From Rhytidiadelphus loreus (lineage: Eukaryota > Streptophyta > Bryopsida > Hypnales > Hylocomiaceae): DNA of 64,000 nucleotides. Below the pieces are notes generated by a model, which saw only the letters and a list, made by a program, of their open reading frames with translations, was not told the origin of the DNA and did no database searches. The position numbers and the translations under genes were made by a program. Within the stretch, counting starts at the first letter, position 1. Each line of letters begins with the position of its first letter. The DNA lies in NCBI GenBank assembly GCA_947034895.1, contig OX344763.1:60283093-60347092 (forward strand), read 5' to 3'. Positions 8,139 to 47,813 of the stretch are shown here, one piece after another.

Positions 8139-8157
8139 TTCACTACCATTACTGTAG

Positions 8158-22319: not shown

Positions 22320-23048
22320 TCATTGCTCATTTGCGGGCTCCTTTAAGGCCTTCTCCTTCAACATTTGTTGTTTTGCAAGCTCCTTGTTGCGGCGCTTGGA
22401 TTTAAAATAAGTTGGAACGAATGACTTGTTCGTGATCAAAAATTTCTTGACTAGTCTATTCAATGAAATGTAGGAATTTTTCCATTGAATGCTCTTCTGA
22501 TATTCGTCTTCCAACATCTTCAAAGAAGCAAACATATTCTTCAATTCACCTATTTCTGATGGTGAGGTTTGTTGTTGCCCATCCATAGACGCCACATCCA
22601 ACTCCAAAGTTCTAGCAAGGGGGCCTTTATCTTTGATGGAATGGAGGTGATTCAATCGAAATCGGGCTGCTTCCAAATTTTGCCTTGCCTCGTTGCCCCG
22701 ATTCTCTTCAATCCTGCAGGCTTCCATGATTTTGTGTAGTTCTGTCTTTCTAACTTGCTTTGGATTGGAACTCGATCCTCCATCTTGCCCTTTATTGAAG
22801 TTCAAATAGAAGTCTTCCAACTTGACCATTTCGTCTTGTTGAACAGCCAAGCGATTGATGCCGACATCTATTAGATCTTCTAAGCTGCGCACATCATTAG
22901 TCTCAATATCATCTGTGGTCCTGTCTTGTAGAATCTGACACTCCAATTTGACTCCTTCAATTTGAGCAAGCAGATCCTTCAATTGTGCCTTGTAATATTT
23001 CTTCATTGATTTCGTGCTGCTACGGTCATTGTATACAATATCTTCTAG
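22320..23048 (-). pseudogene. Outer gene C, C-terminal fragment
   Basis: An open frame of 242 codons ends in TGA. It is Glu/Lys-rich and predicted coiled coil, with FNKGQDGGSSSNPKQ matching FNKGKDGGSTSNSTP of inner C'. It starts exactly at the transposon target duplication CTAGAAGA (- strand). Joined to 47814-48671 it makes a 528-aa frame in register. There are no other lesions, so C was apparently intact when the inner element landed. Function unknown; an alternative start at 23006 could express this half alone but no promoter is evident. Confidence 0.8.
23041..23048. other. Target-site duplication, left copy (TCTTCTAG)
   Basis: Identical to 47806-47813 on the other side of the inner element; 8 bp is the hAT-family length. 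Confidence 0.95.
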
Positions 23049-23235
23049 CAGGGTTGTCTTGTCTGACAGAATTTCGAGCTTTTTTGTCTAATAGACGTCA
23101 CATGTCGCATGTTGAATTGTCGAGTTGTCGAGTAAGGGTGGTTTTTGTTGTCGTGTACGGATTTCGGATTTCAAATTTTTTTACCCCTTGGTAAAACGGA
23201 CTGTCCTACGTGGCTGTGACGTGGCGTGCTTCCTG

Positions 23236-23505
23236 AGGGGCGACCGCGGGTAGGGGCGACCACAAGTAGGGGCGACCGCGGGTAGGGGGGCGACCGCGGG
23301 TAGGGGGCGACCACGGGTAGGGGCGACCGCGGGTAGGGGGGCGACCACGGGTAGGGGGCGACCACGGATAGGGCGACCTCGGGTCCAAAATCCTGGGCGA
23401 CTGCGGGTCCGAATCCAGGGCGACCGCGGGTCCGAAGTCCAGGGCGACTGCGGGTCCGAAATCCAGGGCGACTGCGGGTCCGAAATCCAGGGCGACCGCG
23501 GGTCC
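23236..23505 (+). repeat. Motif array inside the left end of the inner element
   Basis: About 14 copies of GGGCGAC-NN-CGGGT at 15-25-bp spacing. The left half is a near-tandem of GGGCGACCGCGGGTAG, and the right half has GGGTCCGAAATCCA linkers, showing local homogenisation. Confidence 0.85.
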
Positions 23506-24035
23506 TACTTCATGGGCTACAAGTCCGGGGCCCCACAACATTTTTTTTCCAATATTTATTCTTCAACCAACACATTCCACGACAAATCGGCAATATATAA
23601 GCATTGAATTATATGCTCGGTACGTACCAAAGCAAATGAACATGCATTATGTAATGATATATCATGGGACAATCAATTCATAAGCCTAAAACATAATAAT
23701 AATAAAAACCTTGGACAATAATCATATTAATTTAAATGGAACTGCGTACATACATAGGGATGATCTTCACAATTGAGTACCAACTACCAAGACCACTCCT
23801 GTTTGAAATTGCACACTTATTTGCAAAAAATACGAATACCTTCATTAATCATCATCGTCAACACCAAAGTACCTTTTACAATCTTCCTGACTTTGTGAAG
23901 CCAAGTGATGGACTACACAAAATTCAAAATCTACCTATTTCATTACAAGCTTTGGCAACAAATCTTCACTACAAGGCATTGATGTTAAATCCTTATAGTA
24001 CTATTTGAAGGCCTCCACATCTATAATGCAACACA
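23506..24035. other. AT-rich 3' flank of the inner transposase
   Basis: No convincing gene. The + strand ORF 23736-24008 has AT-rich, unstructured content and is not supported. Confidence 0.4.
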
Positions 24036-27000
24036 TTACATTGTGAAGGTAGAATCGCTTTCCGCTTCATCTGCATTGGGGTCGGTGTCTTCATGTGGCC
24101 CACTACTGTCACTAGCTCCTGAGACCTCGTTTTCATCATCCTCTCTGCTTGTAGGTTGAAGGATCACCTCACGTTCCACCTCAGAGTTCAAATTTCGCAC
24201 TTGCGTTTCTAAACCACCAACAACTTCGGCTAGCACTAATCGCTTTGTCGGCCTCGATGCATCAGTGGTTCCATTGATAATAGGGCCTGTCGGTCGCTCA
24301 AGCACCTGCTGCCCAACATGTTGACGCTCTGCTCTCGCTGCTGCGCTTGATGGCCAAGGATTACGAGTGGAATTTCGTTCTCCAATGACAAATGGATGGA
24401 TCGCATGGTTTTGACGCTTGGGGTTCCGTGTCAGTCTGTCTTGCGTCTTGCGGGTTCATTTATTTCCTGATTTGGAGTGTTCACGCGATCGCCTGGATGA
24501 TTCTCCAGGGCCTGACATCAACGAGGCCAGAGTAGGTTGTGGAGCTGAGCCATGAATTCCTTCATCAACGATTTGTCGTAGATCATTATGTGTCGGCGAC
24601 CTTGTTAGAGGAGTTGGTACTATCCTCGATGTTGTGGCAATGTCTACACTTGCAGGGCGATTGGACCCACGGGTACGGGTCTCGTTGAATACCACTTGCA
24701 ATGGCGCATCTGAATTGTACACCCTAGTTTCAGTTGCAGTGTTGTTGGACAGTGCTAAACGTGGACGAACTGCAGGTACCTCTTCAATATGCGACACCTC
24801 TTCTTGCCTTTCACCCTGTACATTAACTCGTACACCACTTCGGAGGTTCATTGGCATACTAGGCGGCAGACATGTGGCAATTGGAGACCTTACAAGCTCC
24901 ACTTCATCTGCCACTGGAATATCTGCACCGTCATTGTTGTCATCAGGAGTTCTTTCCCTCGTTGGGTCTGCATTGATTACCGGAAATGCATCCCAAGCCG
25001 ACACATGAGGGGCTTCGTCTCTGCGGTGGTGCGACGCCTCTGGAGAGCTCAATCCATCATCATCACCCACGAAAGTGTTGTGGTATCGTCCTCGTGGAGG
25101 ACTACCTACACGGGGCACCATACCAGCCCACCTATTTCCACGGAGGCGTTCTTCTACTACCACACGTCTTTGTTCTTCTCTCAAATCTCTAAACCTAACT
25201 TCATCTTCGTCCCCCGAAGAATATGGTTCTTCATTCTCTTCATCTGTATCTCCATCTAAAAGGTACTTTTCGTAGAATAGTGCTGGATTGTGTCTTTGTT
25301 TTTCACGTTCCAATTTGCTGTTGGTGTAGATATACACCAACATCTCAGCCTTCTTTGTGGCTAGGCGATTACGCACTTTATCGTGTACAAACGAATACAT
25401 GCTCCAGTTTCTTTCACAAGATGATGCTGGGCATGTCAGAGACAAAACTCTCCTTGCTATTTTTGGAAGAGCGTTCCCACCCACACGATTCCACCATTGA
25501 TGAGGCAACAAGTTACATTGAGTAACATCTGGAGCCTCTTGTATGGATCAAAGGGACCCGACTTCTCTTCAAATTCCGTCAACTCAGCAATTGCTTCATC
25601 TTCATCCACATTCAATGGTCCGCTCAATTTTCTGATGACTCGATTCAATGCCCGCTTTGCCTCTCCATTGTTATGAAGCTCTTCCACATCTGTCAAATAC
25701 GGGTTCAACAATGCCCCTGCATAATGGAGGTCCGTGCGCATCAACTTCCAACGAGCATCAAATTGTTTTAGGAACTTCGTCGCGGTCTGCTCATCAAGAA
25801 AGAACGGAGCCTCCTTTAAAGTGCACACGTGCTGACGAAGGCTACTCATTATTATCCAAGCTTTCGGCATCGCCGGTATTTTGCCATCGAACTGGCGCAG
25901 AGCAAGAATCACTGGAAGAACCATGTGCTGGAAATTACCGCATTCCACCCAAAACACTTCCGAAACTATGTCCTCTCGCGCTTTACGGGCCCGCTCTCTT
26001 GTAATGAGTCCGTTTGTTCTGCTGACCAAACTATTCTCAAATGGCATATACGTCTCGTCCCCCACCACGAATTGAAGCGCTTGTTTGCACTCTACCAAAC
26101 GGTCTATCATGAGAAAATGCACTGCGAAGCGTGTGGCCGCGCAAAGTCTCAATGACTTCTTCGGCGAGTACTTACGGAAGAGACCCAAAGTCAAGTGGTA
26201 CTTCTTTATAAACTTCACAATTGCCCTGGCCTTATCCACTAGATCTTTGATCCTTTTTTCCTTTCCCCAGTCTTCCAAAAGTAAGTCCAATATATGTGCG
26301 GCACATCCTTACGTATACATGTGGGGATACCTTGCTTGCAACTCGCGCATTGACCTTGTCATTACGGAAGCATTGTCTGTACACAATTGGACAATATTTC
26401 CTGGTCCCACCTGCTCTATGTAGGTAGCCATTGTATTCACCGTATACGCCATGTCTTTCCTCTCTCCTGTGGTGTCAACCGATCCCAGGAAGACATCACC
26501 CGCAGGACAAACGAGCATCATATTCAACAAGGGACAGTGATTTGTATCTGACCATCCATCTGAACAAATAGTGGCTCCATATTGGGTAATAGAACTCTTT
26601 GTTCGACTACTGACCATTTTCGTAACAGCCTCCTTCTTCACATCAAGTAGTTTAGTGCGCACCGCATTGTACGATGGCAGGGAATATGGAAATCCACATG
26701 TCGAAGTTGCTTTCACAGCATTCACAAAGGCTGGGTGCCGCACCACATTGAATGCAATGTTAGCCTCATAAAAGAAAGAAGCCCATAGTCTGTCCAAGTT
26801 TTGTCTTTCATTGACCCGGAATGATTCATCCATGCTTTGTTGACGAGAAATCGAGGTTGAGCGCATCCTTCTCACCGTCACAGGAGTAGAATTCGTTGAA
26901 TCTGGATTACGAGGCGGTGCATTAGGTGCTTCTGTCCTGTCGCTTGGGTCCACAGGCCCTTCCACTGATGCATCCACAGTATACCCTGCAACGGACTCAG

Positions 27001-27322
27001 CAACAACATCAACCTCAAGATCTACTCCATGCATCTCCTCCAAACTCATTTCTTTTGGTACAATCCCTTCACAGTTTCTGAATAATTCGAGGACTACGGA
27101 TGGAATACGTTTACAACTTTCCACTGTTGATGTACGGGGGTAACCAAAGTGACCAAATGCCCGCTTCCGCACGAAAACTTTGTTCCAACCACAAAAAATA
27201 CAAGTCCTCGTATTTGCGGAACGAGCGGGGTTCGTTTCAATAACCAACCAGGGATCCCACTCCTTTGTGGCTCTTCGAGTATCATTTATGTTCGTCCTCC
27301 TCCCCGCTCCTCGGTTTTCCAT
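24036..27322 (-). pseudogene. Inner hAT transposase (DUF659/hATC), lightly damaged
   Basis: About 1,095 codons from ATG 27322. BED-like CIFCGW near residue 41. The core has SDGWSDTN (about 252) and CTDNASVM (about 313), both keeping the Asp residues lost in the outer copy. The hATC segment with SSCERNWSM is at about 636, and NPKRQNHAIHPF precedes an acidic tail. Lesions: TAA at 26309-26311 (Gln CAA in the outer copy), a 1-nt deletion near 25540, and TGA at 24456-24458. It would bind and cut the element ends; the frame is now broken in three places, so this copy should need a helper. Confidence 0.88.
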
Positions 27323-27550: not shown

Positions 27551-27615
27551 TGCTTTCGGTCTTCCCTCCACACGCTCCAAGGATGGTTTTAGGGCGCCGC
27601 TACCAAACTCTATTA

Positions 27616-27960
27616 CACCCGAGGTCGCCCTACCCGACCGCTGGTCCACCTCCAGGCATATGGAGGCGCGCGCCTTTGCAGTAGTCGACTTCGGGTCACA
27701 TGGTGCGAACGCGGGTTCCGGCAGGCGACTTCGGGTCCGAAATAGGGCGAACGCGGGTCCAGGGAGGGCGACTTCGGGTCCAGGTGGGGCGACTTCGGGT
27801 CCAGGGGGGCGACTTCGGGTCCAGGGAGGGCGACTTCGGGTCCCGGATGGGTGACTTCGAGTCTCAGATGGGCGACTTCGGGTCCCACATGGGCGACTTC
27901 GGGTTTCATGGGAGACTTCGAGTGCCATGGGCGACCTCGGGGGAAAGAAGGGCGACTTCA
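27616..27960 (-). promoter_or_regulatory. Motif array upstream of the inner transposase
   Basis: About 14 copies, nearly all the ACCCGAAGTCGCCC variant in the gene's sense. The ORFs across it on both strands are repeat translations. Confidence 0.8.
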
Positions 27961-27981
27961 TGTGCATAAAGATTAACTTAA

Positions 27982-28680
27982 CCCCTAAAGGACCATTGTC
28001 CCCTCAAGGAACAATATGGATTTTGGGCAGGTTCCTATGATCTCAATTTTTAATGAATTTTTTGGAAACTATCTCATAATATACAAGAGCTTATTACCTT
28101 TATGGGAATATAAATTTTGTTGCAATTGGTACCTGGGATTCCGGGAACAAAAGTTATGGCATCTTTAACATAATTTGTAAAGAAGTAAGGAACGTCTCAG
28201 GGTAGAAAAAGAAATCTACAATAATTTGAAATTAATTTTTTAATTTTTTTCTTCTTAAAGGTCATATTTTTGTCTACATGTGTAGCTTTGATTCATTCCA
28301 TTTCGATTAGTAATGTGAAAGTTATGAACAATATTGTTTGGCAAGCAATCAAAATGAAATGATTCAAAGTTTTTCACATAGATATAAATCATAAGAAATT
28401 AAGAACCAATTTCAATATCAATTTTGTTATTGGAAATGCCTTGTCATTTGTGAAGAATATCATTAATTTTTCGGGGGACCAACTGAATGCTAAGTATTGA
28501 AAACTACTTATCATACAAAAACATTTGAACCACTTAGTGAGAAGTTCTAAAATTTGGTAGGCTTCAAATTTAATCCTTTAAAAAATGTTGTGCCAAAGGA
28601 GATACTACAAATTTTATTCATGTTTCCCTTCTAAATATCACTATGATGCCAAAACAAACTATTTCACTCCTTACGGGTTT
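27982..28680. mobile_element. TTAA-type non-autonomous element, copy 3 (right end degenerate)
   Basis: The left end CCCCTAAAGGACCA follows TTAA at 27978-27981 and matches copy 1. Internal sequence matches copies at 43-44 kb and 56 kb. The right end is eroded near CCTTACGGGTTTA. Confidence 0.55.
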
Positions 28681-29149: not shown

Positions 29150-30727
29150 TCATGCAACATCCGTATTGGCCTCCTCTTCCCTTTTCTTCTTCATGACTTC
29201 AAACTCATGGGCCGCAATTCTATAAGCACTCTTCAAAAGGGGTAGGTCATGGTTCCACATCTTGTTTTTGATCCAAAAATTCTTGAACGTTCTCGCATAA
29301 CCAATGTGTGCAGTCTGGAAATCTATGTGCTTCTGAAACTGGTGTTCAAGCTTCTTCAAAGAAACTAACTTCTACTTCAAGGAAGCTACCTCTGATGTCA
29401 GCACACAATGCTCTTCATCTACTAATAATGCATCCAAAGCCATTAGAAGGTCAATGGGGCCTACAACCGTGGTTTCTTTTAGGTCATTCAACCTTGACTG
29501 CACCTCTTCCACAGCTTTCCTTTCGGTATTCAATCGGTTTTCTTCTGCCAAACACTCTTCCATTATTTTGGCCATTCGTTTATCCAAGAACGGGGTGGAA
29601 TTTGAGGTAGAGCCTCCATCTTTGCCTTTATTGAATTTCAAATAAAATTGCTCCAGCTCGTCCATTTCCTTTTGTTGAACTAACAAACAAACTTTCCCGC
29701 TTATGATTAGTGCTTCAAGGGTGTGCTCATCGTTGTCCTGAATGTCACCACCAGTGCGTTCACGCTGCCTTTCACATTCCATTTCTATTTCTACCAGTCT
29801 ACCAAGAATAGCCTTCAACTGGGCTTTATAAGCTTCTTTTCCTTGCCTCCTCGTGTCTTCAAGATATAATACTTCCCTTCCTGCTTCTTGAAGAGGTAGT
29901 TCTTCACATGAATCAAAAATCACCAATGCTTGTTCAGCATCTCGTTGCAACCCGATCTCGCCCTCCTCCTTGTCTTCCTCCATTTCTCGCATGCGTGCAT
30001 ATACATGTTGAAGAACTTCGTCTTCCTCAGGATGACGGAAGTGCATTGGCTCCAACGATCTAAGAGGCGCGACATGCAATACTACTGCCCCTTCTGAGTC
30101 TCCAACAAAAGGTACCACCGCTGCCATATTTTCTTCAAGTATTGGATCTTCATTTGGGGGCATAGGGTCTGCAATGTCTTCTTCATCCGAGTCGGTGGAG
30201 GTGGACGACTGGCCCCAATCGTAGTCTTCATCCGACACTTCTTCTTTGAAATGTTTTTTGGGCCCTAATCCATCCCTCAGATTATTTGATGGATCCGCCC
30301 TTGGAATGTCTTTGGTAGTGGGAACTATGCTATTGGGGGTTTTCTTAATGGTCCTCCAATCCACAGTTCGTCGCAATTGTAGCTCTGCATAGACCATTTG
30401 GCATATACCCAATGAAACTTGACTCCCCTTCACTGTTGGTTTTTGATATAATGTCCGGTAAACTTCGATGCACCGTTGCACAAATGCATCATCTCTGCAG
30501 TAGTGAAGATTAGCATTGTTTTGGCTGATATGGACATCGTGCCGGAAGTAAGGGAATAGCTTATCGATATGGCACCACCCTACGTAGGCCTTGCAAGTGT
30601 TGAACGTCCAATCCGATTGCACGTTTTGCCAATTTGGAAATGCCCTTGCTGTTGGGTCCAAAAGGATGGCTACATTCCGACTATGGCGCTCTCCTTTCTT
30701 CTTTGCCTTCTTAAAGGGGGGGGCCAT
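29150..30727 (-). pseudogene. Inner gene C': N-terminal WCHI domain plus coiled coil, one nonsense codon
   Basis: 525 codons from ATG 30727, with a single in-frame TAG at 29372-29374 where a Gln codon would fit; a 450-residue product remains. The N-terminus is basic (KKAKKKGERH), followed by the domain shared with D and E: KAFPNW..DW and VGWCHIDKLFP..RHDVH, then YAELQLRRTVDW (about residues 25-130). A low-complexity acidic middle follows, and a long Glu/Lys-rich coiled coil (about 285-440). No membrane segment or signal peptide. Function unknown; a structural or adaptor role is only a guess. Same family as the outer C it interrupts. Confidence 0.8.
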
Positions 30728-30906: not shown

Positions 30907-31082
30907 CCAGGCGACCGCATTTGTACCCGAAGTCGCCCTGGGCGCGTGCGGGATCAGGGTTTAGGGGGGCGAGTGCGTTAAGTGGGGCGACCGCGGGTCC
31001 AGGGAATTCTGGGCGACCGCGGGTCCAAGAAGGGCGTGTGCGGCTTCAGGGCGACCGCGGGTGGGGCGACCGCGGGTCCAGG
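30907..31082 (-). promoter_or_regulatory. Motif array upstream of C'
   Basis: About nine copies, mostly sense ACCCGCGGTCGCCC, with degenerate GCGTGCGGG variants. The distance to the ATG is about 180 bp. Confidence 0.75.
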
Positions 31083-31369: not shown

Positions 31370-32430
31370 TGTATTTACTTCAATGAAAATATTTTTAGAT
31401 CATTTTTCAGACAAAGAAAAATAAAAGAAGAATCTAACACAAGTGATTTCATTTTTTTTAAGTATTTTTTAATTAATTGAAAATTTCCAAAGGACTTGTG
31501 TCATAGGTCCCTACTTATGCCCCTAGGTCTCCCGTAAAACGTTCACTTGCAACTTCTAAAGAAAAATGGGGAAGTAAAGAGAATGAATTGGCTTTTACAA
31601 TTGATAATTTTTTTTTCTCGAATCATTTAATGATTATGGAGGTCAATTTATGAACTACAGTTTGTCCATTTCAAAGCCACTTATAGAGTCCATTTTTAAT
31701 GCCCAGTCCATTTTAGAGCCTTCTACCTTATATTTACTTTCACATCCTCACAAATGGAGAAAGGAAGTACAATTTATGTATCAATGAATAGGTGGTAGTA
31801 AAATCGTGGGCCACCGCAATTAAAAATATTCCCAACATGTAATGAGTTTAATAGCTTTTTCAAGTGATATTAAGTTTTGGAAGAGAACATTTCAGTGTGC
31901 CAATATAATTTGTAGTTCTTCATTTCAACTCCAATCCAAAATTTATTTTTATAAGCAGTACACTCAACCATGAAAAAGTAAATTTGGTAGGTTATCATCT
32001 CACAACTCTTATCCAATATTGCACCTTCATGAAACGTGCATACTAATACACAAGCTAATTAAACATTCCTATGGTTAGGTTCTTGTTTCATAAAACTTGC
32101 TTCAATGGAAATAACTATAAGTCCATGCTCTTTTCATAAAGGAAAAATACAGTTGGAAAGGCATAGGCACTTAGGGGGGCATTAGTAATGCATTCTAATT
32201 GTTAAGCTAAACTTATCTTTTGACTCTAAATAGATTATGCAAACACCCCTCTTCTAAAATCAAATTTCATTCGCAAGTACATCTTCGTCATTGTCCATAA
32301 TGACGAACAATTCTAATTAAAGAAAGATTTAGCACAATTGAATTCTAAAATACTCTATATCATTACAAATTAGTTGCTTTAAAGTTTCAAAAAATCCCGT
32401 GAAGACCTCGGTATACGCCACATGACATGC

Positions 32431-32510
32431 TTCGAAGGTTTGACCAGGAGCCTCTTCGAACTCCACTATGACCTGTTTCTTATCTCATAGCGAAGTTCGA
32501 AGAGGTCCCT
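32431..32510 (-). repeat. Hairpin of repeat R1
   Basis: Arms of about 38 bp (GGAGCCTCTTCGAACT and its mate AGTTCGAAGAGGTCCC) around a short loop. Same location as the hairpins of R2 and R3 but with a different arm sequence. Confidence 0.65.
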
Positions 32511-32563
32511 GACCGAACCAAGAAGCCCAAACCAGAACCTTGTACATCATGTACACCGGGTTG

Positions 32564-32644
32564 GGAATCGAACCGTAGACCTCCCAGACTCCACTTGAAT
32601 TCGAAGAAGTCGACCCTTGTGTGAGAATCCCTTCCACTACTTCA
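32564..32644 (-). repeat. SINE-like Pol III A/B boxes, copy R1
   Basis: The - strand A-box-like TGAAGTAGTGG (32634-32644) and perfect B box GGTTCGATTCC (32564-32574) are about 60 nt apart. No tRNA cloverleaf or acceptor stem is seen. Confidence 0.45.
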
Positions 32645-32785
32645 CCTTCCCGTTGGTCACACCGGGAATCACCTTTGATGCACCACTTCTTGTCCATCCC
32701 ATTTTTATTCTTTTTTTTTCTTTAATTGTACGGGTCTTCAAAACAACATGAGCCGCCCAACACAAATTAATCTCCCAGTTTTGGA

Positions 32786-33170
32786 CCCGCGGTCGCCCCA
32801 CCCGAAGTCGCCCAAGTCCCAGAGAAGAGGGAATTTCAAATGCGTGAGTTTTTCCCTCCTCTCTAGATCCGCGGTCGCCCCACCCGAAGTCGCCCCACCT
32901 GAGGTCACCCCAGCACCGCAGAAAGAAGTCCCCAATTTCCCACTTCTCTGGAGCCGTAGTCGCCCTACCCGCGGTCGCCCCACCCGAAGTCGCCCCACCC
33001 GAGGTTGCCCCAGCACCGCAGAAAGAAATCCCCAATTTCCCCCTTCTCTGGACCCGTAGTCGCCCTACCCGCGGTCGCCCCACCCGAAGTCGCCCCACCC
33101 GAGGTCGCCCCAGCACCGCAGAAAGAAGTCCCCAATCTCCCCCTTCTCTGGACCCGCGGTCGCCCCTACA
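32786..33170 (+). repeat. Motif array inside the left inverted-repeat arm
   Basis: Sense ACCCG-NNNN-CGCCC on the + strand in three near-identical ~120-bp blocks, each ending CCCAGCACCGCAGAAAGAA. Not next to a gene start. ORFs on either strand are repeat translations. Confidence 0.75.
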
Positions 33171-33420
33171 TCAGTATTTGAAAGAGTCACTTATAGAAGA
33201 CTGCTGTCATGGTAGGTGAGATCATAGAATATTTTCTAGATAGCTTACAATTATATCACATGATCATTTTATTAAATGGTCCCTAACAAGGCTTCAATAT
33301 TTTGAAGCCCTACAATCATGAACCGAAAACCCGACAAAGCCCTCGCAAAGTAGAACCCTAGAATCCAAACCGTAACCCTCAAATGCCCAATGTATTTTAG
33401 GATGTTTTATGAATTTGCTT

Positions 33421-34355
33421 TAAATTGTACAAGAAGTCAACATTATATGTGCCTACTAACAAGCAAGTTGTTTAAACATTCATACGGTTAGATTAAAAAA
33501 TAAATAGGAAACTTGCTTCAATCCCAATTACTGTAAGTCCATGCTTTTTTTTCATAGGAAAAATACAAGAGGGAAAGGCTTAGGCACATAGGGCTTAATA
33601 ATTAATGCACTCTTATTGTAATGCACTTCAAGATTTTTTCTCAAAGTAGCCAAAGTGACGGTTTTTAGTGGTTCTGAACCTATAATGGCCTTCGAACTTC
33701 AGGGGTTAAATTCACATCTAAAGAAACTTTTATTAGTTTTTGATTATGGCTCAAACATATAGATCTTGCAAGAATATTTTGACCTTGTATTCAAAAGTAA
33801 TGAACCTGGAAGAAGCCTTCAAGGTACTCTTTGTAAAAATGTTTTGTGAAACATTAAAAGGCAAATTCAAAATTTAATTTTTAATTTGTAGACCAAAATG
33901 GTTTTGTTGAGAGAAAACGTAATTTCTACATATAAAGGTGAAATTAATTTCACCTAAAAATGGTGTATTGCATTTAACCCTTATGTTCCCATTTTTTCTG
34001 GCCCATTCAAACCAATTGAGAAATGTCATTTTTATTGCCAAAAACCTATTAAGATTACAAGAAAGTCATCCTTTTTTGCCGGATGAACCAATACAAGTGC
34101 CGATTGTCAATGCTTTTTAGAAGGAAAATGGGCTCCATTATTCCAAGGCTATATATCTTACTGGAACATTGAGCCTATTTAATTCATTCATTGCAGCAAA
34201 ATACAAACATTGATATGAGAGATTCAATACAACATACCATGAAGAATAGATCCACAATATTGCCAATTTGGGGAAAATGGCACTTCATATTAAAATTTGA
34301 TTACATGTACTAGAAGTACTACTCCAAAATGATACTATGGTATTCTTCCATCACA
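33421..34355. other. AT-rich 3' flank of the inner kinase
   Basis: Contains an eroded TTAA-type end AGGGGTTAA at 33702-33709 and sequence shared with 32.0-32.2 kb (GTCCATGCTTTTTTTTCATA region). No gene seen. Confidence 0.4.
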
Positions 34356-36128: not shown

Positions 36129-36159
36129 CCGTAGCACAGGACCAAGACTGGCGAATGCG

Positions 36160-37100: not shown

Positions 37101-37851
37101 AGAGCCTATGCCTTTCCAAGTGTAAGGTAGGAGGCTCAGAAATGGTGCACCTAAGGGCTGGTCTGCCTTTTTCGTGTATTTCTTTGGACGGGAATATTTT
37201 TAGCTCATTTTTCAGACAAAGAGAAATTGATGAGGAATCTAACCCAAGTGGTTTCATATTTTTCCAAAGATTTTTGAATTACTTATGAATTTTCAAACGA
37301 GTTGGGTCATAGGTCCCTATTTGTGACCCTAGATCTTTCATGAATGGTTCACTTGCAATTCTAAATAAAAATGGAGAAAACAAAGAGAATGATTGGCTCT
37401 TCCAATTAATAATGTTTTCTTCCTTGGTTCATTCAATGAATGTATTGGTCAATTTCAGAACTTTAGATGCACCATTCCACAACCATTTATAGGAGCCATT
37501 CTTAATGCCCGCACTCTTTCACAACCTCCTACCTTAGTTTTTCTGTTATGAAAAGAGCATGGACTTGTAGTTATTCCCATTGAAGCAAGTTTCCTATTTA
37601 TTTTTTAATCTAAACGTATGAATGTTTAAACAACTTGCTTGTTAGTATGCACATTCATTTTGAGTGCAAAATTGCGGAAGAGTTTTAAGATTATAACAAG
37701 AGAAATGTACATTCTTCACTTCGAGTGTATTACCCCTCTCCACAACCATTTTAAAGTTTGCAGAAAAAAAGTTTCTTGGGATTGGAGGAAAAATGAAGAA
37801 GTATACAGAAATTGATTCTATAATTCAAGATGTTGGCTTCTTGTTCAAGTG
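37101..37851. other. AT-rich sequence related to parts of the inverted repeat
   Basis: 37140-37530 resembles 31330-31740 (TTTTTCAGACAAAGA..AAGTGGTTTCAT). No gene. Confidence 0.4.
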
Positions 37852-37854
37852 AAC

Positions 37855-38505
37855 CCCTAAGTGACCCCGAGGACAGGATGGGTCCTCAACCAATTTCCTA
37901 AGTTAAACAAAACCTTACCAAATTACTATATGTAGTAATTCATATTTTTGGAAAATTCTTTTTGAAGTTTAGTTTTAGCTTCAAAAATCTGATTTTGAAA
38001 ATGATTGATTATGATTTTTCTATTTAAGATTTTGTGCATGGGTGTACACTTGCAATCTTGACTTTTTGTAGTGTTGAGGGCTCTTAGGAATGAGCCTCAA
38101 ACACACTAAATCTTTGAGAAAATATCACATTACAAATGAAATTTAAAAAAATGATAAAGTAGATTTTGAGAAGTTATAAATTGATTGGGTTTATGCACCT
38201 TAGGCCCTTTAAGCTCATATTTTTTAGGTGACGAACTTTTTAGATTTCACATTTGAAAAGAGGATTGAAATACTTCAAATCACTTTCACAGATTTAACAC
38301 CCTCATGATAAAACATTATAATCTTTCAATAAATTAGAGGTATTGTTGTGTTTTCTTTTCTAATGTGATCTCTAATACGTCTAGTTTGAATTTACACGGT
38401 TACAATTCAAAAAGAATGGATAGAACGTATCAAAATGTTGGATTTTTGTTCAATTTAGAGCAAATTCTAGAAGCTTAGCAAATTCCAGGGTCATTTTGGG
38501 GTTCA
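37855..38505. mobile_element. TTAA-type related element, second subfamily
   Basis: Ends AACCCCTAAGTGACCCCGAG and GGTCATTTTGGGGTT are imperfect inverted repeats. The whole segment is homologous to 53880-54535. Flanking TTAA is eroded. Confidence 0.5.
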
Positions 38506-38756
38506 AGCAAATTCATAAACCATCCTAAAATGCGTTGGGCATTTGAGGGTTTAGGTTTGCGTTTATGGTTCTAGTTTGTGAGGGCTTTGTAGGGATTTTG
38601 GTTCATCATTGTAGGGCTTGAGGATATTGAAGCCTTGTTAGGGACCATTTAATAAAATGATCATGTGATATAATTGTAAGCTATCTAGAGATTATTCTAT
38701 GATCTCACCTACCATGACTGCAGTCTTCTGTAAGTCACTCTTTCAAATACCAATGT

Positions 38757-38995
38757 AGGGGCGACCGCGGGTGAGGCGACCGCCGGTCCAGAAAAGGGGG
38801 AAACTAGGGACTTTTTTCTGCGGTGCTGGGGCGACCTCGGGTGGGGCAACTGCGGGTAGGGCGACTTCGGGTAGGGCGACCGCGGGTCTAGAGAGGAGGG
38901 AAGAACTCACGCATTTTTGCTTCCCTCTTTTCTGGGACTTGGGCGACCGCGGGTAGGGCGACTTCGGGTGGGGCGACTTCGGGTCCAAACATTGA
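38757..38995 (+). repeat. Motif array inside the right inverted-repeat arm
   Basis: GGGCGAC..CGGGT orientation on +, the mirror of 32786-33170, including the CTTTTTTCTGCGGTGCTGGG linker. Confidence 0.75.
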
Positions 38996-39122
38996 GACTA
39001 TTTCGTGTTGGGCAGCTGATGGTATCTTGAAGCCCAATAGAATCAAAGAAAAAAAAGAATAAAGATGGGATGGACAAGGAGTGGTGCATCAAAGGTGATT
39101 CCCGATGTGACCAACGGGAAGG

Positions 39123-39322
39123 TGAAGTAGTGGAAGGGATTCTCACACAAGGGTCAACTTCTTCGAACTCAAGTGGAGTCTGGGAGGTCTACGGTTCGAT
39201 TCCCAACTCCGTATGCATGATATAGGAGGTTATGGTTGGGTCTTACAGGTTTGGTCAAGGACCACTTTGAATTGCGCACTGAGATGAAAAACATTTCGGT
39301 GCGGAATTCAAAGTGGTCCTTG
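39123..39322 (+). repeat. Repeat R3: Pol III boxes and hairpin
   Basis: A-box-like at 39123-39133, B box at 39193-39203, hairpin arms 39256-39282 and 39296-39322. The arms differ from R2 (GGACCACTTT versus GGGGCACTTT) with matching changes in the mate strand. Confidence 0.65.
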
Positions 39323-40487
39323 GCTCAATCCTCGAAGCACGTCGCGTGGCCTATACCGAGGTCTTCACGGGATTTTTTGAAACTTTAAAGTAACTAATTT
39401 GTAATGATATAGAGTATTTTAGAATTCAATTGTGGTAAATCATTATTTAATTAGATTTGTTCGTCATTATGGAGAATGACGAATAAATACTTTTGAATGA
39501 AATTTGATTTTACAAGACAAGTGTTTGCTTAATCTATGTAGGGTCAAAAGATAAGTTTAACTTAACAATTAGAGTGCATTACTAATAAAGTCCTAAGTGC
39601 CTTAAGCCTTTCCCTCTTGTATTTTTCCTATGAAAATTGAGCATGGACTTATAGTAATTGCCATTGAAGCAAGTACCCTAAACCCGAAAATCTAACCGTA
39701 TGAATGTTTAATTAGCTTGTGTAGTTGTGTATTAGTATGCACGTTTCCTTTGAGTGCAAAATTGGATAAGAGTTGTGAGATGATAACCAAGAAAATTTTC
39801 ATTTTCTTTATTGATTGTATTGCTTATAAAAGAAAATTGGGATTAAAGGTGAAATGAAGAACTACAAATTATATTGGCACTCTAAAATGTTCTCTTCCAA
39901 AACTTAATATCACTTGAATAGCTATTAAACTCATTACAGGTTGGGAATATTTTTAATTCTGGTGGCCTACGATTTCACTACCACCTATTCATTGATACAT
40001 AAATTTTTTTGCTCAGGCAAGGGTGTGCATTGAAGCATTTGACACTCAAGGAAACACTATCGTAAATATTTTTTTAGTTGGGGAGTTTCTCCAAATCCGA
40101 CGTCCATTGGATTTTAAAGAGGGTTCCTTTCTCCATTTGTGTGGATGTGAAAGTAAAGATAAGGTAGAAGACTTTGAAATGGAGCGGGCATTAATAATGG
40201 ACTCTATAAGTGGCTTTGAAATGGACAATCTGTAGTTCATAAATTGACCTCCATAATCATTAAATGATTCGAGAAAAAAAAATTATGAATTGTAAGAGCC
40301 AATCCATTATCTTTACTTTCCCATTTATGTTTAGAAGTTGCAAGTGAACATTTTGCAGAAGACCTAGGGGCATAAATAGGGACCTATGACAAAAGTCCTT
40401 TGGAAATTTATAAGTAATTATAAAATACTTCCAAAAATATGAAACCACTTGTGTTAGATTCCTCTTTTATTTGTCTTTGCCTGAAAA

Positions 40488-40745
40488 ATCACCCGAAGTC
40501 GCCCAGGGACCCGCACCCGAAGTCGCCCAGGGACCCGCACCCGAAGTTGCCCAGGGACCCGCACCCGAAGTCGCCTAGGGACCCGCACCCGAAGTCGCCC
40601 AGGGATCCGCACCCGCGGTCGCCTTGTGGACCCGTGGTCGCCTGGGTACCCGTAGTCGCCCTTGTTCGGTCGGGGGACCCGCACTCGCCCTACTTGGAGG
40701 ACCCGCACTCACCCTCCCGCGACCGCTAGTCCCAGTACAAATGGG
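40488..40745 (+). promoter_or_regulatory. Motif array upstream of inner gene D
   Basis: Begins with a regular tandem of ACCCGAAGTCGCCCAGGG at about 22-bp spacing, then diverges to ACCCGCGGTCGCC and ACCCGCACTCGCCC. Sense to D. Confidence 0.85.
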
Positions 40746-41070: not shown

Positions 41071-42564
41071 ATGGAGCGTACGACCTCGCCATCTCCTCCT
41101 ACCATACCTACTCCATTGACTCCGCAAGAGAAAAGGGCGATGGAGGACAAGGGTCGAAAACGGTCAGGCAAGAAGCACAAGAAGCGCGTGGCCATATTAC
41201 TTCATCCGAAGATTAAGGCTTTTAAGGGTTGGAGGGATGAACCAGAGCCTTGGAGTTACCGGACTGTTGCGAAGTATGTGGATTGGTGCCACATCAGCAA
41301 GTTATTTCCGTTGTGTCGTCACCCTTTGCACGTTCAAAACCAAAAGGTTAACCTTGCGTATGCTACGGACATAAGGTTCATGCGTAGATGCTGCGAAGTA
41401 TGGACCCTTCTATATTTGGAGACCAAGGTGTACAGAAACGATAATTTCAGTTTCTTTCTTGTACGAATGGTGTATGCCGAAGTTGTTTTGAAGAAGGTAG
41501 TCGATTGGACAACACTCCCAGAAATGCCTATTGCGGTCCGTCCGGACCAAAAAGAGTGGGAGGAAGCCTCCAACTTGTGGGCAAAGTATCCTCTTGATAT
41601 AAGCAAGATGATGACACCGATTAAGCGTGGAGCATCATTTGTTGCTGATGAAGAAGTAGTTTGGTCTTCCACTTCTTCCTCGAACGAGCACACCCATGAG
41701 TACAACGGATATTCCTTCTCTAGTGATGATGAAGATGTTTTTGTCACCGAGTCCAAGAAGTCTTTGGATGTGGGCCTTCAGAAGAAGAAAGATCGTGGAA
41801 AAGAGCCCATTACCTCAACCAGCCATGAAGAAGTCTTGGAAAAAGTTGACCCCATGGAAGTGGAGGACTTTTCCACAAAGGAGTGTGCGATGCTAGAAGG
41901 TGATAGTGATTCATCAGACAATGAGGAGACCTTGATTGCCAAAATCGAGAGTGCACGTTTATCATTGAGTACAAAGAGTGAGGAACTGAAGAATTTGAAG
42001 GAACGCGAAGTGTCTTCTCCCACTGAAGCTTATTTGAAGCAACAATTGAGGTCTCTCAACCAAATACTCAAAGAGAGAGATGACGATTTTGTTGCTTTTA
42101 AGAAGAATGGAGACCAGTATTTAACTAAGCAGAGCACCGGGAAATTGTCGCAAGCTGACCATTGTTTATTGTGGGAATCAAAATTAGAAACCCTGCAACG
42201 CAGACATAGGAAAGCACAGAATGAGCGGCGAGCACTGCGTGTTCAAATTACCGAAGAAGAAAAGAAATATTACGAAGCGGCCAAAAAACATGTCAAGGAG
42301 GTGGACGGTTTGGCAACGGCCTCGACATACAGTAATCTACCAGAGGAGTTAGAAATGCTTCGGAATTTGGTGAAGTTCCATGAGACTAGAGTACAAGTGT
42401 TGGAAGACGAGTTTGTGGATCTGAGAGCCGAAAGCGAGTATTATACGCAGTGGATGAAGTGGATGAAGGATACAACGGGAAAGAGAGGTGAAGAATACGA
42501 GAAAGTGGGTCCTCCTCCTAATATGAGTGACTTCCTAAACCAAAAAGAGGTTTTTAGAAAGTAG
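41071..42564 (+). CDS. Inner cargo gene D: WCHI domain plus coiled coil, intact
   Basis: 497 aa, start ATG with A at -3, stop TAG. A Ser/Pro-rich head and KRSGKKHKKRVAILLHP basic patch (possible nuclear signal) lead into the shared N-terminal domain: KAFKGWRDEPEPW, VDWCHISKLFPLCRH, FMRRCCEVW, VYAEVVLKKVVDW (residues about 45-150). An acidic Ser-rich linker contains NEHTHEYNGYSFSSDDED. From about 285 to 470 it is heptad-rich coiled coil (LETLQRRHRKAQNERRALR). No enzymatic motif. It pairs with the outer D, which has one stop. Function unknown; an oligomeric DNA- or protein-binding adaptor would fit the composition but is a guess. Confidence 0.85.
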   Translation: MERTTSPSPPTIPTPLTPQEKRAMEDKGRKRSGKKHKKRVAILLHPKIKAFKGWRDEPEPWSYRTVAKYVDWCHISKLFPLCRHPLHVQNQKVNLAYATDIRFMRRCCEVWTLLYLETKVYRNDNFSFFLVRMVYAEVVLKKVVDWTTLPEMPIAVRPDQKEWEEASNLWAKYPLDISKMMTPIKRGASFVADEEVVWSSTSSSNEHTHEYNGYSFSSDDEDVFVTESKKSLDVGLQKKKDRGKEPITSTSHEEVLEKVDPMEVEDFSTKECAMLEGDSDSSDNEETLIAKIESARLSLSTKSEELKNLKEREVSSPTEAYLKQQLRSLNQILKERDDDFVAFKKNGDQYLTKQSTGKLSQADHCLLWESKLETLQRRHRKAQNERRALRVQITEEEKKYYEAAKKHVKEVDGLATASTYSNLPEELEMLRNLVKFHETRVQVLEDEFVDLRAESEYYTQWMKWMKDTTGKRGEEYEKVGPPPNMSDFLNQKEVFRK

Positions 42565-43024: not shown

Positions 43025-43970
43025 TCTAAACCCATAAAGTCCGAAGGCCATTTTTAGGTGAAGAAAAAATCAAAACTGTCATTTCTATAATTCTATTGTG
43101 TTTGTCCAAAGAAAAAAATAAACTTTTGTGGAACTGAAGCTGAGGATCTTGAACTTCACTTGTTTAAGATTTTGTGGTTAAAATTGTACGATGTTTGACT
43201 GTACAGATTTAGAGATATGAGCATTCAAAGTTGAAGAACAATTTTTTTGCAACATTGGACTACACTTTCAGACGACTTTGATTGCTATTTCTTCCAAAAA
43301 TGTGCACTATGGAATTTGAATTTAAAATTTATTGTGTTGAAGAATTGAGTTGGGAGTGTAGGAAAAAAAAATTCAAAAAATAATAACTTCCTTTTCATAC
43401 TTCAAAAAATTGTCAAGTAGAAGTAGATCCAAGGTTAAAAGAAAAACTAAATTGATAATAGCTCTTACATGGGATTGGAACACAATAATCCGTTAGTCCC
43501 AACGGTGAGATTGTTGTAGGAAGCAAACTTCTCCTTTAAAATAAACTAATTAGAGAAAATTTGAAAATTGCATTTTCAAATGAATTCTATAAGTTATTTT
43601 TTGAAATATTTGTTTACATTGCCTTAAAAAGAACAGGGTTCTTAACTTGCACATCACTAATGAAAATGGAATGAATCAAATCTTTTTATGTAGACAAAAA
43701 CATAATGTTAGCAAAAACATGAACAAAATTAAATCTATTTTGGATTTTTGCAATGTTTTTTGTACTGCTTGCCGAGTTTAGTTCTAGGTATTTTGTGGCG
43801 TAACTTTTGCTTCCGGACACCAATTGAAATAAAAATTATATTCCCTCAAAGCTTATCAGATTTTATCTTTTCACAAAAAATTTCAAAAAATTAGGGTACA
43901 ATTTCAAGCCATAGAAACTTGCCCAAATTCCAAATTGTCTCTAGAGGGGACAATGGGACTTAAGGGGTTC
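43025..43970. mobile_element. TTAA-type non-autonomous element, copy 4 (degenerate ends)
   Basis: From ACCCATAAAGTCCG to GGGACTTAAGGGGTTC. The interior (AGTAGAAGTAGATCCAAGGT, CCCAACGGTGAGATTGTT) matches the 59-60 kb and 60.5-61.5 kb copies. Confidence 0.55.
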
Positions 43971-44526: not shown

Positions 44527-47007
44527 TTACTTCTTAGAAGAACTTGCTTCACCATGTGAAGGTTGAAGTGCCTCTTGAAGGACTATCTTCTTCTTTGCAC
44601 GAGTTCGTGAAGCTGGCCCTTCCGCATTCAAAATGAATTCCAGGACGTTGGAATCTTGGAGAGCTTGTAGGGTCCTTGTGGTTTGTGGAGAATGTGCTTC
44701 CAAAAGATAGTCCAATGCTTGACTTTGGTAATAAGGTCCATACGTAGAGTCCATGCAAGCCATGTTAGTCATGTCTTCAAGAGAGGCAAATTGATTGCGA
44801 TCGGGTCCCCTTTTACCTTCATTATCCCAACGGTGTCCTTCCGGATGAGGACCCCATTTGAATTCTCCCGAGCTCTTCTCGAAGTATCCACCAAGGCATT
44901 GGTAGAAGAATGCCCTTCTCCCTTCATTGTGTGGACCTTTTCCCATCAACTTCGGTGCCACTTTGACAATCTCCGCCGGGTCAATTTCCCAGTTCAATTG
45001 AGAGCTACTAGGTGCCTTTTCATCATCATGTAGCCCTTGACACCAGCTCCAAACGAGGTCACGACCCCACAGTGTCGTATTAGTCGTCGTTTCAACGCTA
45101 TGTTCCCAAAAAGGTGGCATGTACGTCATCAAGTTGAACATGGCATACAAGCGATCATGAAATGGTGTTGAACAAAGTACACAACGTCGTCTAATGAGGC
45201 ATCCCATAAAGAGGCATTGAGGATGGTACACATGTGCACATGACCCGAGAGCCCAACCACCTTCAGGGCCAAATTGCTCTTGACAAATGGGGCATTTTGT
45301 ATGGTCGAGTACGAAAGCTGCAGGTTGTGGCCATAGTAGCTTTTGGTCCTTCACCTCCATGTGACTAGACATTTGCTTTGCATGGTCCCAGCCCTGTTGT
45401 GCCCAATCTATAATATTTGTGTCTGCCAACATCGGCATGTTTTCAGGAAACATGTCATCTAAGAGTGCCCAGGATGTAAGTCCATTCTCACGTTTAGGTA
45501 AAGTTGCAACAAAATTCTTTGAAACCTTATCTAATTCCTTGGCTATTTGCTGTGATCTGTCCACGGAGAGAATGCACGCCACCTTCCAATGGTAGTACGT
45601 GGCAACCAATTGATCCAACCGTTGTTGAAGCTTTTTGTTCTACTTTTCAAGGTCTCTTTCTTTGTCACTCTGCCTTGATTGTTGAACTGTTGGAAATGAG
45701 AGTGAATCTTGGGTCCCATGAATATCGTTCGTGTCAGTGGTCGTGTCTCCGCCAATCGTAGTGAGGAACGCACTTCGATTATTTTGCAAAACCTTAGCAT
45801 GCTTGGAAGGTGGTGGATGGCAAGGAACATCGTCGGTAAGGTCCCCCACAACTTTGTCTAGATGATGTGGATCATGGTCAACAAAAGCCTCATCCATATC
45901 TGACAAAGTGAAAGCGCCAGCCTGATTTTCTCGTAGGGCTTGAAGCTCGGTAGATTGTCGTGCAATGAGAGCATCTTTCAGTTGGCACTGTCCTTGCAAT
46001 TTCTTCAAGTTACTTTTCAATGAAGCAATCTTGTTGTCTTTGATCTGTATGATGTTTTGAGCCTTTGCTAGGGTCAGAGTGTTGTGACCTACATCCACTC
46101 GGGATTGAAGAGTTGGTGCACCAACAATTGTTTCACTGGGCCCTTCATCGTTGCAACTGAATTCGAAGACATCACTTGGATTCTGTGCAGGCAATGGTGG
46201 ATTTGAAGCTGATGGAGAAGCCCCTTGTGGTCCAATTCGTGTAGTGGAACGTCGCACTCTTGACGATTGTCTCGATTTACGTCCCCGTGATGTTCCGACG
46301 CCGTGGATAATTTCATTCTGATTTGGGGGGAGGCCGATAGGTAGTTCCGTGGCTCGTTCTACCCGAAGCACCCGCGTACCATCTGAATTGTCATCCTCTT
46401 CTGATGACTCTGTGTCAATTTCAACCTGGGCCTGATTCCTAGGAACACTTCGAAAAGGACCCAATCCACCCTCTGGAAAAAGGAGAATTCCTTTTGGTAT
46501 GCACCCGTCCTCTGGACGGGTTACGTGAGGACTAGATTTGATCGTGCTCCAATCGACTTCTTTCTTCAATGCCACTTCAGCATAGGCTCCTCTGGCAAGG
46601 AAAAGAGGGGCCTCATTCCTTTCTACAGAGGCCGTATTGTAGGGAGCTTGCCACAATTCAATGCACCTGTTCACGAATATTTCATTCTCACAGAACTTCA
46701 AGTTCGCCTTGTTGGTGTGTCGATGATGATGATGACGCCATGCTGGAAAGAACTTGCTGATGTGGCACCACTCAATGTAATCTTCGCAAGTTTGTATTGA
46801 CCATGGCTCAGGCTCCTCGTTCCACCCCTTGAAAGCAATGTGGTCAGCACTATTCAACACATGCAATCGCTTTCGGTGACAAGTACCCCTACGCTTCCGT
46901 TCCTTGTCTTTTTCAATCTTTCGCAATCCCAAACCACGACGTGGACGTGGAGCCGGTGGAGGGGCTTCAGCAAGAAATTCTCCAGTGGTATTGTCTCCAC
47001 TAGCCAT
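44527..47007 (-). pseudogene. Inner cargo gene E': WCHI domain, coiled coil and RING-H2 finger, one nonsense codon
   Basis: 826 codons from ATG 47007 (MASGD); upstream in-frame sequence is repeat array and not coding. The N-terminal domain (about 65-165) has IAFKGWNEEPEPW, IEWCHISKFFPAWRH, AYAEVALKKEVDW. A Ser/Arg and acidic linker and a coiled coil follow. An in-frame TAG at 45640-45642 cuts it just before ATYYHWKVACILSVDRSQQ. The RING-H2 (about 565-610) reads CPIC-x13-CAH-x2-H-x2-C-x10-CVLC, all zinc ligands present, as in E3 ubiquitin ligases. The C-terminus is basic. A ubiquitin-ligase role is likely for an intact version; targets unknown. If TAG is not bypassed, only the RING-less N-terminal part is made. 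Confidence 0.82.
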
Positions 47008-47199
47008 GGTGGGTTGTTGAAATGAAGGTCCTAAAAAATGTAGAGGGATTGTTGAAATCAAACCACTAGAAAAAGAACCTTGGATGAAAGTAGTCAAATA
47101 GTAAATTTTCAACACCAAATGCTTATGCATGTAGCCAGAAAGGGATACAAGCCAAGAAGCCTTAGTGATGAACATGGGAGAATGAAGATTCGGCGACTT

Positions 47200-47209
47200 C
47201 ATATATAGG
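47200..47209 (-). promoter_or_regulatory. TATA box of E'
   Basis: - strand CCTATATATG, about 195 bp upstream of the ATG, at the edge of the array. E' lacks the shared block seen upstream of C, kinase and D. Confidence 0.55.
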
Positions 47210-47216
47210 CGAACCC

Positions 47217-47445
47217 GGGTGTGGATGCAAAATGGGCGCGTGCGGGTCACGTAGGCGACCAGCGGTCCTGGAGGGGCGACCAACGGGTCCTGGGGGGGGC
47301 GACTGCGGGTCCTGGAGGGGCGACCGTGGGTCCTGGGGGGCGACCGTAGGTCTTGGGGGGGCGCGTGCAAGTGACGAAGGGCGAGTGCGGGTCTTGGATG
47401 AGGGCAAGTGCGCCGACGGGTGCGGGTATCGGCGACCGCGGCCTA
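47217..47445 (-). promoter_or_regulatory. Motif array upstream of E'
   Basis: About ten copies in the sense of E', including GCGTGCGGG and GAGTGCGGG core variants, with GGTCCTGG linkers. Confidence 0.75.
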
Positions 47446-47447
47446 GT

Positions 47448-47645
47448 ACCCGTGTTCGCCTAAGACCCGTGTTCGCCTAAGACCCGCAGTCGCCCCTACC
47501 CAAAGTCGCCCTGGACCCGCGGTCGCCTCACACCCGAAGTCGCCCCCACCCGAAGTCGCCCCACCCGAAGTCGCCCTCACCCGAGGTCGCCCCACCCGAA
47601 GTCGCCCCCTACCCGAAGTCGCCCTCACCCGAGGTCGCCCAACAT
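47448..47645 (+). repeat. Motif array inside the right end of the inner element
   Basis: About ten copies of ACCCG-NNNN-CGCCC on +, so each points inward from its terminus in mirror image to the left-end array. It abuts the E' array head to head at about 47446. Confidence 0.8.
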
Positions 47646-47795
47646 TTGCCACGCGGCTGCCACATGGCAGCCAGGTAAGCCTAGGTAAATGGGGGGTAAA
47701 TTCCAGAAAAGTCAAAGGGTAAAGTTGACTCTATTAGACGGACGGGCCCCTCTACTAGACGTCTTCGACGTCGAGTTTGTCGAGTTGTCCGGGTA

Positions 47796-47805
47796 GACAA
47801 CCCTG
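47796..47805 (-). repeat. Right terminal inverted repeat, inner element
   Basis: GACAACCCTG, the exact reverse complement of 23049-23058. Subterminal GTCTAATAGA-type words lie at 47710-47770. Confidence 0.95.
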
Positions 47806-47813
47806 TCTTCTAG
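47806..47813. other. Target-site duplication, right copy (TCTTCTAG)
   Basis: Identical to 23041-23048. Confidence 0.95.

Follow-up and report, generated by a model that had tools for sequence, protein, structure and literature searches.

A giant five-gene hAT transposon family in the moss Rhytidiadelphus loreus, one copy of which is nested in an older relative

Introduction

Can a hAT transposon, typically a small element with one gene, exist as a unit of ~25 kb with five genes of its own? The question is raised by a 64,000-nucleotide stretch of the genome of the moss Rhytidiadelphus loreus (GenBank assembly GCA_947034895.1, contig OX344763.1, positions 60,283,093 to 60,347,092), which is referred to as the window and numbered from its first letter. 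An initial annotation of this stretch had described a complete giant hAT transposon that moved as one unit with a transposase, a kinase, a RING protein and two coiled-coil proteins, the extra genes being regarded as cargo. The single unit with five genes is supported by its ends, by unsplit insertion sites and by recurring copies, and the case for a giant hAT family that has five genes and was once mobile is nearly conclusive. The annotation overlooked that this element, termed the inner element here, sits inside an older relative whose five genes are the same. In all, the inner element very probably belongs to a large family of autonomous ~25-kb five-gene hATs in which the accessory genes are integral.

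Ends and Insertion Site of the Inner Element

Short inverted ends starting with CAGGG are a hallmark of hAT elements. The inner element spans positions 23049-47805 (24,757 bp); its inverted ends are 10 bp long, and its 8-bp target duplication is perfect. Comparison of ends across copies places the left terminal inverted repeat, CAGGGTTGTC, on the transposase side (23049-23058, plus strand) and the right one, GACAACCCTG, on the RING side (47796-47805, minus strand). The duplication TCTTCTAG, which has no strand, lies directly outside at 23041-23048, where sister site L082 has a single copy, and at 47806-47813, as read from the sequence; the junctions thus read TCTTCTAG-CAGGGTTGTC at 23041-23058 and GACAACCCTG-TCTTCTAG at 47796-47813. 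The end, its reverse complement and the flanking octamers are exactly as first described, and both features then named as hAT hallmarks, the 8-bp duplication and the CAGGG ends, are present.

On statistics alone, an exact 8-bp duplication combined with an exact 10-bp inverted repeat surprises only moderately. Sixty dinucleotide shuffles of the window produced six such pairs in all (~0.1 per shuffled window), a rate that lends something to the idea of two ends from separate short elements paired by chance, or of an assembly artefact. The real window contains five exact pairs, three of which are palindromic and arise from an inverted repeat inside the element. Another, at 21633-60633, sets an exact duplication ACTCTACT and an exact inverted repeat ACAAGATCCT 39 kb apart within the outer element, perhaps by chance or as a by-product of repeats.

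Since pairs of this kind arise in shuffled DNA, independent proof of insertion was sought. The open reading frames (ORFs) flanking the inner element are the two halves of one coiled-coil gene of the outer element, designated CC-A, and when the flanks are joined with a single TCTTCTAG the reading frame is open all through. A metagenomic relative, P0002, has its CC-A gene unsplit. Moreover, the unsplit site that the initial annotation had suggested looking for was found in two sister copies in the host genome, both aligning without gaps over 1,400 bp: L082 at 98.3% identity and with one TCTTCTAG, and L081 at 97.4% identity and with one difference within the octamer. Insertion of the inner element is proven because it splits a gene, because two sister copies are unsplit, and because perfect 8-bp duplications flank 20 of the 31 elements that were examined at both ends (three more match at 7/8). 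Chance pairing or misassembly, whose probability is negligible, is refuted by the split gene being whole in sister copies and by the recurrence of ~25-kb copies with both ends on all five long contigs of the assembly. Separate short elements at the two ends were rejected likewise, as both ends recur in other copies.

Copies Across the Host Genome

Searches were run on the 407-Mb host assembly that contains the window, and the match counts are lower bounds for copy number. For the transposase, the best 44 of 1,566 candidates were scored; five of them are 92-100% identical to the outer copy (itself included) and 39 are 62-64% identical, with open frames of 1,022-1,155 amino acids (aa), and the four of these that were fetched all belong to the inner copy's family. 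The best 111 of 1,193 RING candidates were all at least 96% identical, and the best 79 of 1,407 kinase candidates were all 98-100% copies of the element gene; any intron-containing host parent of the kinase would rank below those 79. Apart from one RING place on contig C458, all scored copies lie on five contigs of 50.7-94.4 Mb.

The genes recur together. A scored RING gene stands on the same strand and the expected side, 18-39 kb away, for 28 of the 39 scored transposases, where 0.3 would be expected by chance and one control match was seen; in 25 of these 28 pairs the spacing is 18-25 kb. Of the scored kinases, 64 of 79 are paired with a scored RING gene at a distance of 5-20 kb and in the expected position and orientation; out to 20 kb, no scored RING gene lies on the opposite side or strand. 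Four stretches of 40 kb were fetched, and three of the four copies carry all five genes in collinear order, at ~94-99% aa identity to the inner copy (in copy Y4, CC-A is at 91-93% and a 32-aa piece of the transposase is lower). Copy Y3 has no RING partner among the scored matches, yet the RING gene is present on its fetched stretch. The co-occurrence of the same five genes between the same ends, on which the initial annotation had staked its claim, is thus borne out by the fetched copies and by the transposase-RING pairs.

Both ends were then fetched for 26 further transposase-RING pairs (the 28 minus two already fetched). The transposase-side 30-bp end has at most two mismatches in 24 of the 26 and at most five in 25, the RING-side end has at most two in 24, and both ends are within six mismatches in 23. 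Among those 23, the duplications match at 8/8 in 17, at 7/8 in two, at 6/8 in one and at three or fewer positions in three. The remaining three pairs comprise one with an 8/8 duplication, whose end match is weaker, and two in which one end was not found. The 18 further pairs with 8/8 duplications, which answer the question of whether other copies show them, measure 24.6-26.3 kb in 16 cases and 31.2 and 44.2 kb in the other two; copy Y3 has an 8/8 duplication and measures 26,389 bp, and 18 of the 20 elements with 8/8 duplications span 24.6-26.4 kb. Two oversized elements, C3:46047302-46091550 (44 kb, 8/8) and C4:17647562-17685636 (38 kb, 7/8), probably carry nested insertions.

The Five Genes

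In both elements of the window the same five genes occur in the same order: transposase, CC-A, kinase, CC-B and CC-RING. In the inner element, the hAT transposase gene (24036-27322, minus strand) encodes DUF659 and Dimer_Tnp_hAT domains and is interrupted by stops and a frameshift that are absent from intact sister copies. The CC-A gene (29372-30727, minus strand), with a shared N-terminal domain and a coiled coil, is shortened by an early stop, and the protein kinase gene (34356-35996, minus strand) is intact at 546 aa. CC-B (41071-42564, plus strand) likewise has the shared domain and a coiled coil and is intact at 497 aa, and CC-RING (44527-47007, minus strand) adds a RING-H2-like finger to the shared domain and coiled coil and has one in-frame stop. 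The RING ORF (44527-45639) and its upstream neighbor, a coiled-coil ORF (45640-47442), are regarded as this one gene because the intact relatives P0031 (824 aa), P0032 (777 aa) and L001 (875 aa) show it whole. For each of the five genes, an intact ORF is present in the inner copy or in one or more of the fetched copies.

Pfam matches identify the transposase by PF04937 (DUF659; E 5.4e-26 inner, 9.4e-31 outer) and by PF05699 (hAT dimerisation; E 4.2e-06 inner, 5.2e-07 outer, both above the Pfam cut-off). The gene list of the initial annotation was correct on Pfam and coiled-coil evidence, with a RING match in the window that is below the cut-off. The RING finger of L001 is above it, at 36.9 bits, and the best PDB match of the CC-RING family profile is RING finger protein 24 (E 1e-6). 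By eye, the kinase appears to retain the motifs that an active enzyme should have (lysine, HxD and DxG-type), and its N-terminal region is conserved between the inner and outer families. CC-A, CC-B and CC-RING have in common the N-terminal domain of ~110 residues, with invariant residues of the type WCHIxKxFPxxRH. A zinc-binding reading of this domain was dropped, as the conserved C/H positions are, by eye, not all kept in L001.

Could the element have been built on a non-hAT basis, derived from a virus or resembling a Starship, with the hAT transposase a later visitor? Kinases and RING proteins do occur in large DNA viruses, and the size and multi-gene content are like those of giant elements. 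This origin is nonetheless very improbable: Pfam scans of 12 element ORFs, the smaller ORFs being left out, found no tyrosine recombinase, capsid, polymerase or integrase; the ends and 8-bp duplications are of hAT type; and four scans of viral contigs (with the transposase twice, the RING protein and CC-A) gave no relative.

The Older Outer Element

The gene that the inner element interrupts belongs to an older and diverged element of this kind at 14660-64963, whose own length is 25,539 bp. By comparison of ends, its left terminal inverted repeat is CAGGGTTGTCTTGTC (14660-14669, plus strand), preceded by ATCTTCGT; its right end falls at window coordinate 64963, beyond the window (stretch L028), and is followed by GTCTTCGT. 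The duplications ATCTTCGT / GTCTTCGT are 7/8 alike. The outer transposase is open for 1040 aa (15774-18896, minus strand), with the gene start upstream in another frame. The outer CC-A gene is split by the inner element into a 3' part (22320-23048, minus strand) and a 5' part (47806-48668, minus strand). The outer kinase gene (52061-53622, plus strand), whose orientation is opposite to that of the inner one, has a break in its frame near 53235 and, further on, a stop. CC-B (57599-59011, plus strand) has one in-frame stop, and CC-RING (61819-64000, minus strand) has in-frame stops and extends past the window.

Between inner and outer copies, aa identity is 62-64% for two segments of the transposase and 43% for a third, 49% for CC-A, 62% for the kinase with 53% in its C-terminal part, 65% and 44% for two parts of CC-B, and 70% for the RING part and 40% for a coiled-coil segment of CC-RING. 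The ratio of nonsynonymous to synonymous substitution (dN/dS) between the two is 0.10-0.30 in 10 of 10 segments across all five genes, transposase included, a rough measure of which only the direction is safe, as dS is 1.2-2.7 and near saturation.

These comparisons bear directly on the possibility that an ordinary hAT once captured unrelated host genes, in the style of a Pack-hAT, and that the extras are passengers with no role in the element. Gene capture by hATs is documented, as with the histone H3 sequence within fungal elements of 9.5-9.9 kb (PMC6710886), and kinase and RING domains are common in hosts. Capture of this kind is unlikely here: the same five genes have been kept in two families at 40-70% aa identity, with dN/dS as low as that of the transposase, motif arrays precede the genes in both families, and a distant relative, L001, joins a transposase to a shared-domain RING gene. 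Passenger genes usually decay, which also speaks against capture.

Motif Arrays at Ends and Genes

Tandem arrays of GGGCGACNNCGGGT, a consensus common to both families, are found at element ends and before genes. In the inner element they occupy the left end (23239-23503, plus strand, 13 motif matches) and lie upstream of the transposase (27617-27942, plus strand), CC-A (30925-31077, plus strand), kinase (36150-36467, plus strand) and CC-B (40491-40689, minus strand), while one array (47208-47639, minus strand) lies both at the right end and upstream of CC-RING. In the outer element they occupy the left end (14858-15141, plus strand) and lie upstream of the transposase (19285-19573, plus strand), CC-A (48990-49163, plus strand), kinase (51339-51891, no strand assigned) and CC-B (57104-57226, minus strand).

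Fourteen arrays lie between 14660 and 64963. All 126 motif matches in the window are at or beyond 14858, and there is no array in the first 14.6 kb of the window or in the 9 kb beyond the outer element. An array stands 154-389 bp upstream of nine of the nine gene starts examined (outer CC-RING was left out, and the outer transposase start is an ORF edge), and the first 400 bp on the gene side are free of arrays at every one of these starts. Random placement, repeated 200,000 times, put an array before seven of the nine starts at best and never before all nine. The array-to-gene distances in the two families are similar for the kinase (154 and 170 bp) and CC-B (382 and 373 bp) and less alike for the transposase (295 and 389 bp) and CC-A (198 and 322 bp).

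Distant Relatives

One scan of GTDB contigs gave three loci with a related transposase, of which L001 alone matches another element gene. This contig, filed under a cyanobacterial metagenome bin, carries the C-terminal part of the transposase and, ~0.7 kb further on the same strand, the intact 875-aa gene for a protein with the shared domain, a coiled coil and a RING finger; the genes appear to be of eukaryote type. At the contig end (6150-6291) lies a GC-rich tandem repeat of another sequence, of the CGTTCCCTCCCC-CCGCCCC type, which suggests that related elements have arrays with other motifs. When the L001 RING gene was used as a query on the host genome, the best 52 of 2,589 candidates were scored, with open frames of 694-824 aa. 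By eye, none of these places is among the 111 scored in the search with the RING gene of the window, and they look like further families.

The earlier term cargo can therefore be set aside: the four extra genes look integral to the element and not like passengers, because the motif arrays are shared, the genes show purifying selection, and the distant relative links transposase and RING gene. A function of the four accessory genes within the element has good support: diverged families have conserved them, selection on them is purifying, and they share the arrays.

Several observations weigh against an autonomous family with integral genes. In the window itself, three genes of the inner copy (transposase, CC-A and CC-RING) are broken and four of the outer copy have lesions or the insertion; nothing indicates current movement of the element. 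Elsewhere, 11 of the 39 scored transposases have no scored RING partner and five have neither a kinase nor a RING partner among the scored matches, and 15 of the 79 kinases and 47 of the 111 RING places likewise have no scored partner. These figures come from the best matches of each search, and as copy Y3 illustrates, a partner may exist without being among them. Copy Y1 is without CC-B and CC-RING, and the presence of CC-A and CC-B was checked in the fetched copies alone. Copies Y2 and Y4 have no matching duplications, and among the 26 further pairs, five match at three or fewer positions (two of these with one end not found) and one at 6/8; such mismatched cases may be recombined or rearranged copies. 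The shared N-terminal domain has no Pfam family above the cut-off and CC-A has no PDB relative by sequence, which leaves the domain without a known relative in those searches, and the RING fingers of the window copies score 23.5 and 26.0 bits, below the Pfam cut-off of 27.3. Finally, the array motif was defined after the arrays had been noticed, protein binding to GGGCGACNNCGGGT arrays is putative, and the near-saturated dS given above belongs with these points.

Comparison with Known Elements

Membership of the hAT superfamily, to which Ac, Tam3 and hobo belong, is indicated by the CAGGG-type ends, CAGGGTTGTC, the 8-bp duplications, and the combination of DUF659 with the hAT dimerisation domain. 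The same two domains are found in MarorhAT-10 of a mushroom, an element of 3.4 kb (PMC9674265), and the grapevine hATs of the Hatvine families measure 2.4-5.5 kb (PMC2528002). In contrast to this small one-gene form, the elements described here have ~25 kb and five conserved genes. Large size does occur in other plant DNA transposons, for example in the grapevine CACTA elements of 10-25 kb (PMC2528002).

Comparable too are the gene-capturing hATs, which have in common with the present elements a hAT transposon with extra gene sequence. Examples include the 9.5-9.9-kb hAT of Pseudocercospora fijiensis with its captured histone H3 sequence (PMC6710886) and ToxhAT, given as 14 kb (PMC12506042). 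These carry one captured host or effector sequence, whereas here four genes are under selection in diverged families. VANDAL elements such as Hiun, with the VANC anti-silencing proteins, have element-specific short motifs in dense, same-orientation tandem arrays in their non-coding parts (PMC5735166), and tandem motif arrays occur in non-coding parts here as well. This likeness is one of arrangement and not of membership: VANDALs are MULEs without inverted ends (PMC13317346), whereas the transposase here is of hAT type and a reader protein for the arrays is putative. Starships are likewise large eukaryotic DNA elements with several genes, and differ in that they use a tyrosine recombinase (PMC12134995), whereas the moss elements combine a hAT transposase with a fixed set of genes in a host that is photosynthetic; no family of the Starship captain type was found in the Pfam scans of 12 element ORFs. 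No multi-gene giant hAT of this kind appeared among the titles and abstract openings searched, which does not prove absence.

A 25-kb hAT that keeps four selected extra genes, in many copies and at least two diverged families, shows that the superfamily can evolve multi-gene elements, and it points to the evolution of a multi-gene genetic parasite from a class of transposons that normally have one gene. The family makes gene roles for a selfish element testable, among them counter-silencing, control of the transposase, and ubiquitin and kinase signalling. It also bears on how a cut-and-paste transposase moves elements of ~25 kb, and the motif arrays provide a direct handle for binding work.

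Possible Mechanism

Judging from structure, the DUF659/hAT transposase would excise the element at its CAGGGTTGTC ends and reinsert it with 8-bp duplications. The GGGCGACNNCGGGT arrays are most likely bound by a protein encoded by the element, either the transposase or one of the proteins with the shared domain, and a single factor could thereby mark the ends and switch on, or keep unsilenced, all five genes. The RING protein, which resembles ubiquitin ligases, and the kinase would probably modify the transposase or host chromatin or silencing proteins, although roles for the accessory genes are conjectural. On this view, which we prefer, the element would regulate itself through a circuit of its own.

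A bolder and distinctly tentative proposal, which we hold to be the less probable outcome, is that the element is a self-regulating regulon. One element-encoded DNA-binding protein would read GGGCGACNNCGGGT at the ends and at the five promoters, coupling transposition, transcription and escape from silencing, with the RING and kinase proteins disabling host defence. The shared domain would then be a novel domain for DNA binding that multiplied within the transposon, and families of elements would diversify as motif and reader changed together, as for VANC in an unrelated superfamily.

Internal Repeats and Neighboring DNA

On either side of the inner kinase lie inverted repeats of ~2 kb whose identity is mostly 83-91%, and there is a third partial copy. 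The left arm (31402-33619) includes a duplicated motif array at 32785-33164 and the right arm (38502-40489) one at 38760-38984; these two arrays, considered at one point as arrays with no gene, are explained as copies of the kinase-upstream array within the inverted repeat. It is conceivable that the kinase was flipped between the families through recombination at inverted repeats like these.

Two AT-rich repeats also occur in the elements. One of 655 bp, found at 37849-38503 and 53874-54532 (83% identical), has no long ORF and ends like AACCCCTAAATGACCC, and is probably a miniature transposon that both elements contain; the reading of 37849-38503 as a sixth gene was rejected, there being no long open frame and the ends looking, by eye, like inverted repeats. 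The other is a family of several copies per element, in both orientations and ~66-77% alike, at 20236-21323, 27977-28368, 43108-43969, 56289-56805 and 59457-61073.

Contig C489 of the assembly carries an rbcL gene and, after it, an ORF taken as accD, in DNA of 31% GC; this is chloroplast sequence and marks the host as photosynthetic. By score, the best PDB match of this rbcL is 9chz, a hornwort Rubisco. On two other contigs, C394 and C74, extra genes for the RuBisCO large subunit were noticed in addition to the chloroplast one, possibly from other organisms in the sample. Finally, positions 1-14659 of the window are different DNA with a tandem motif of their own, of TTATCCTCGGGTCGAGGATAA type, at 1198-1604 and 7913-8140. 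The second of these arrays immediately precedes an ORF at 8158, and positions 6997-7722 encode a NIF-type phosphatase domain; this segment is possibly another multi-gene element in a similar style.

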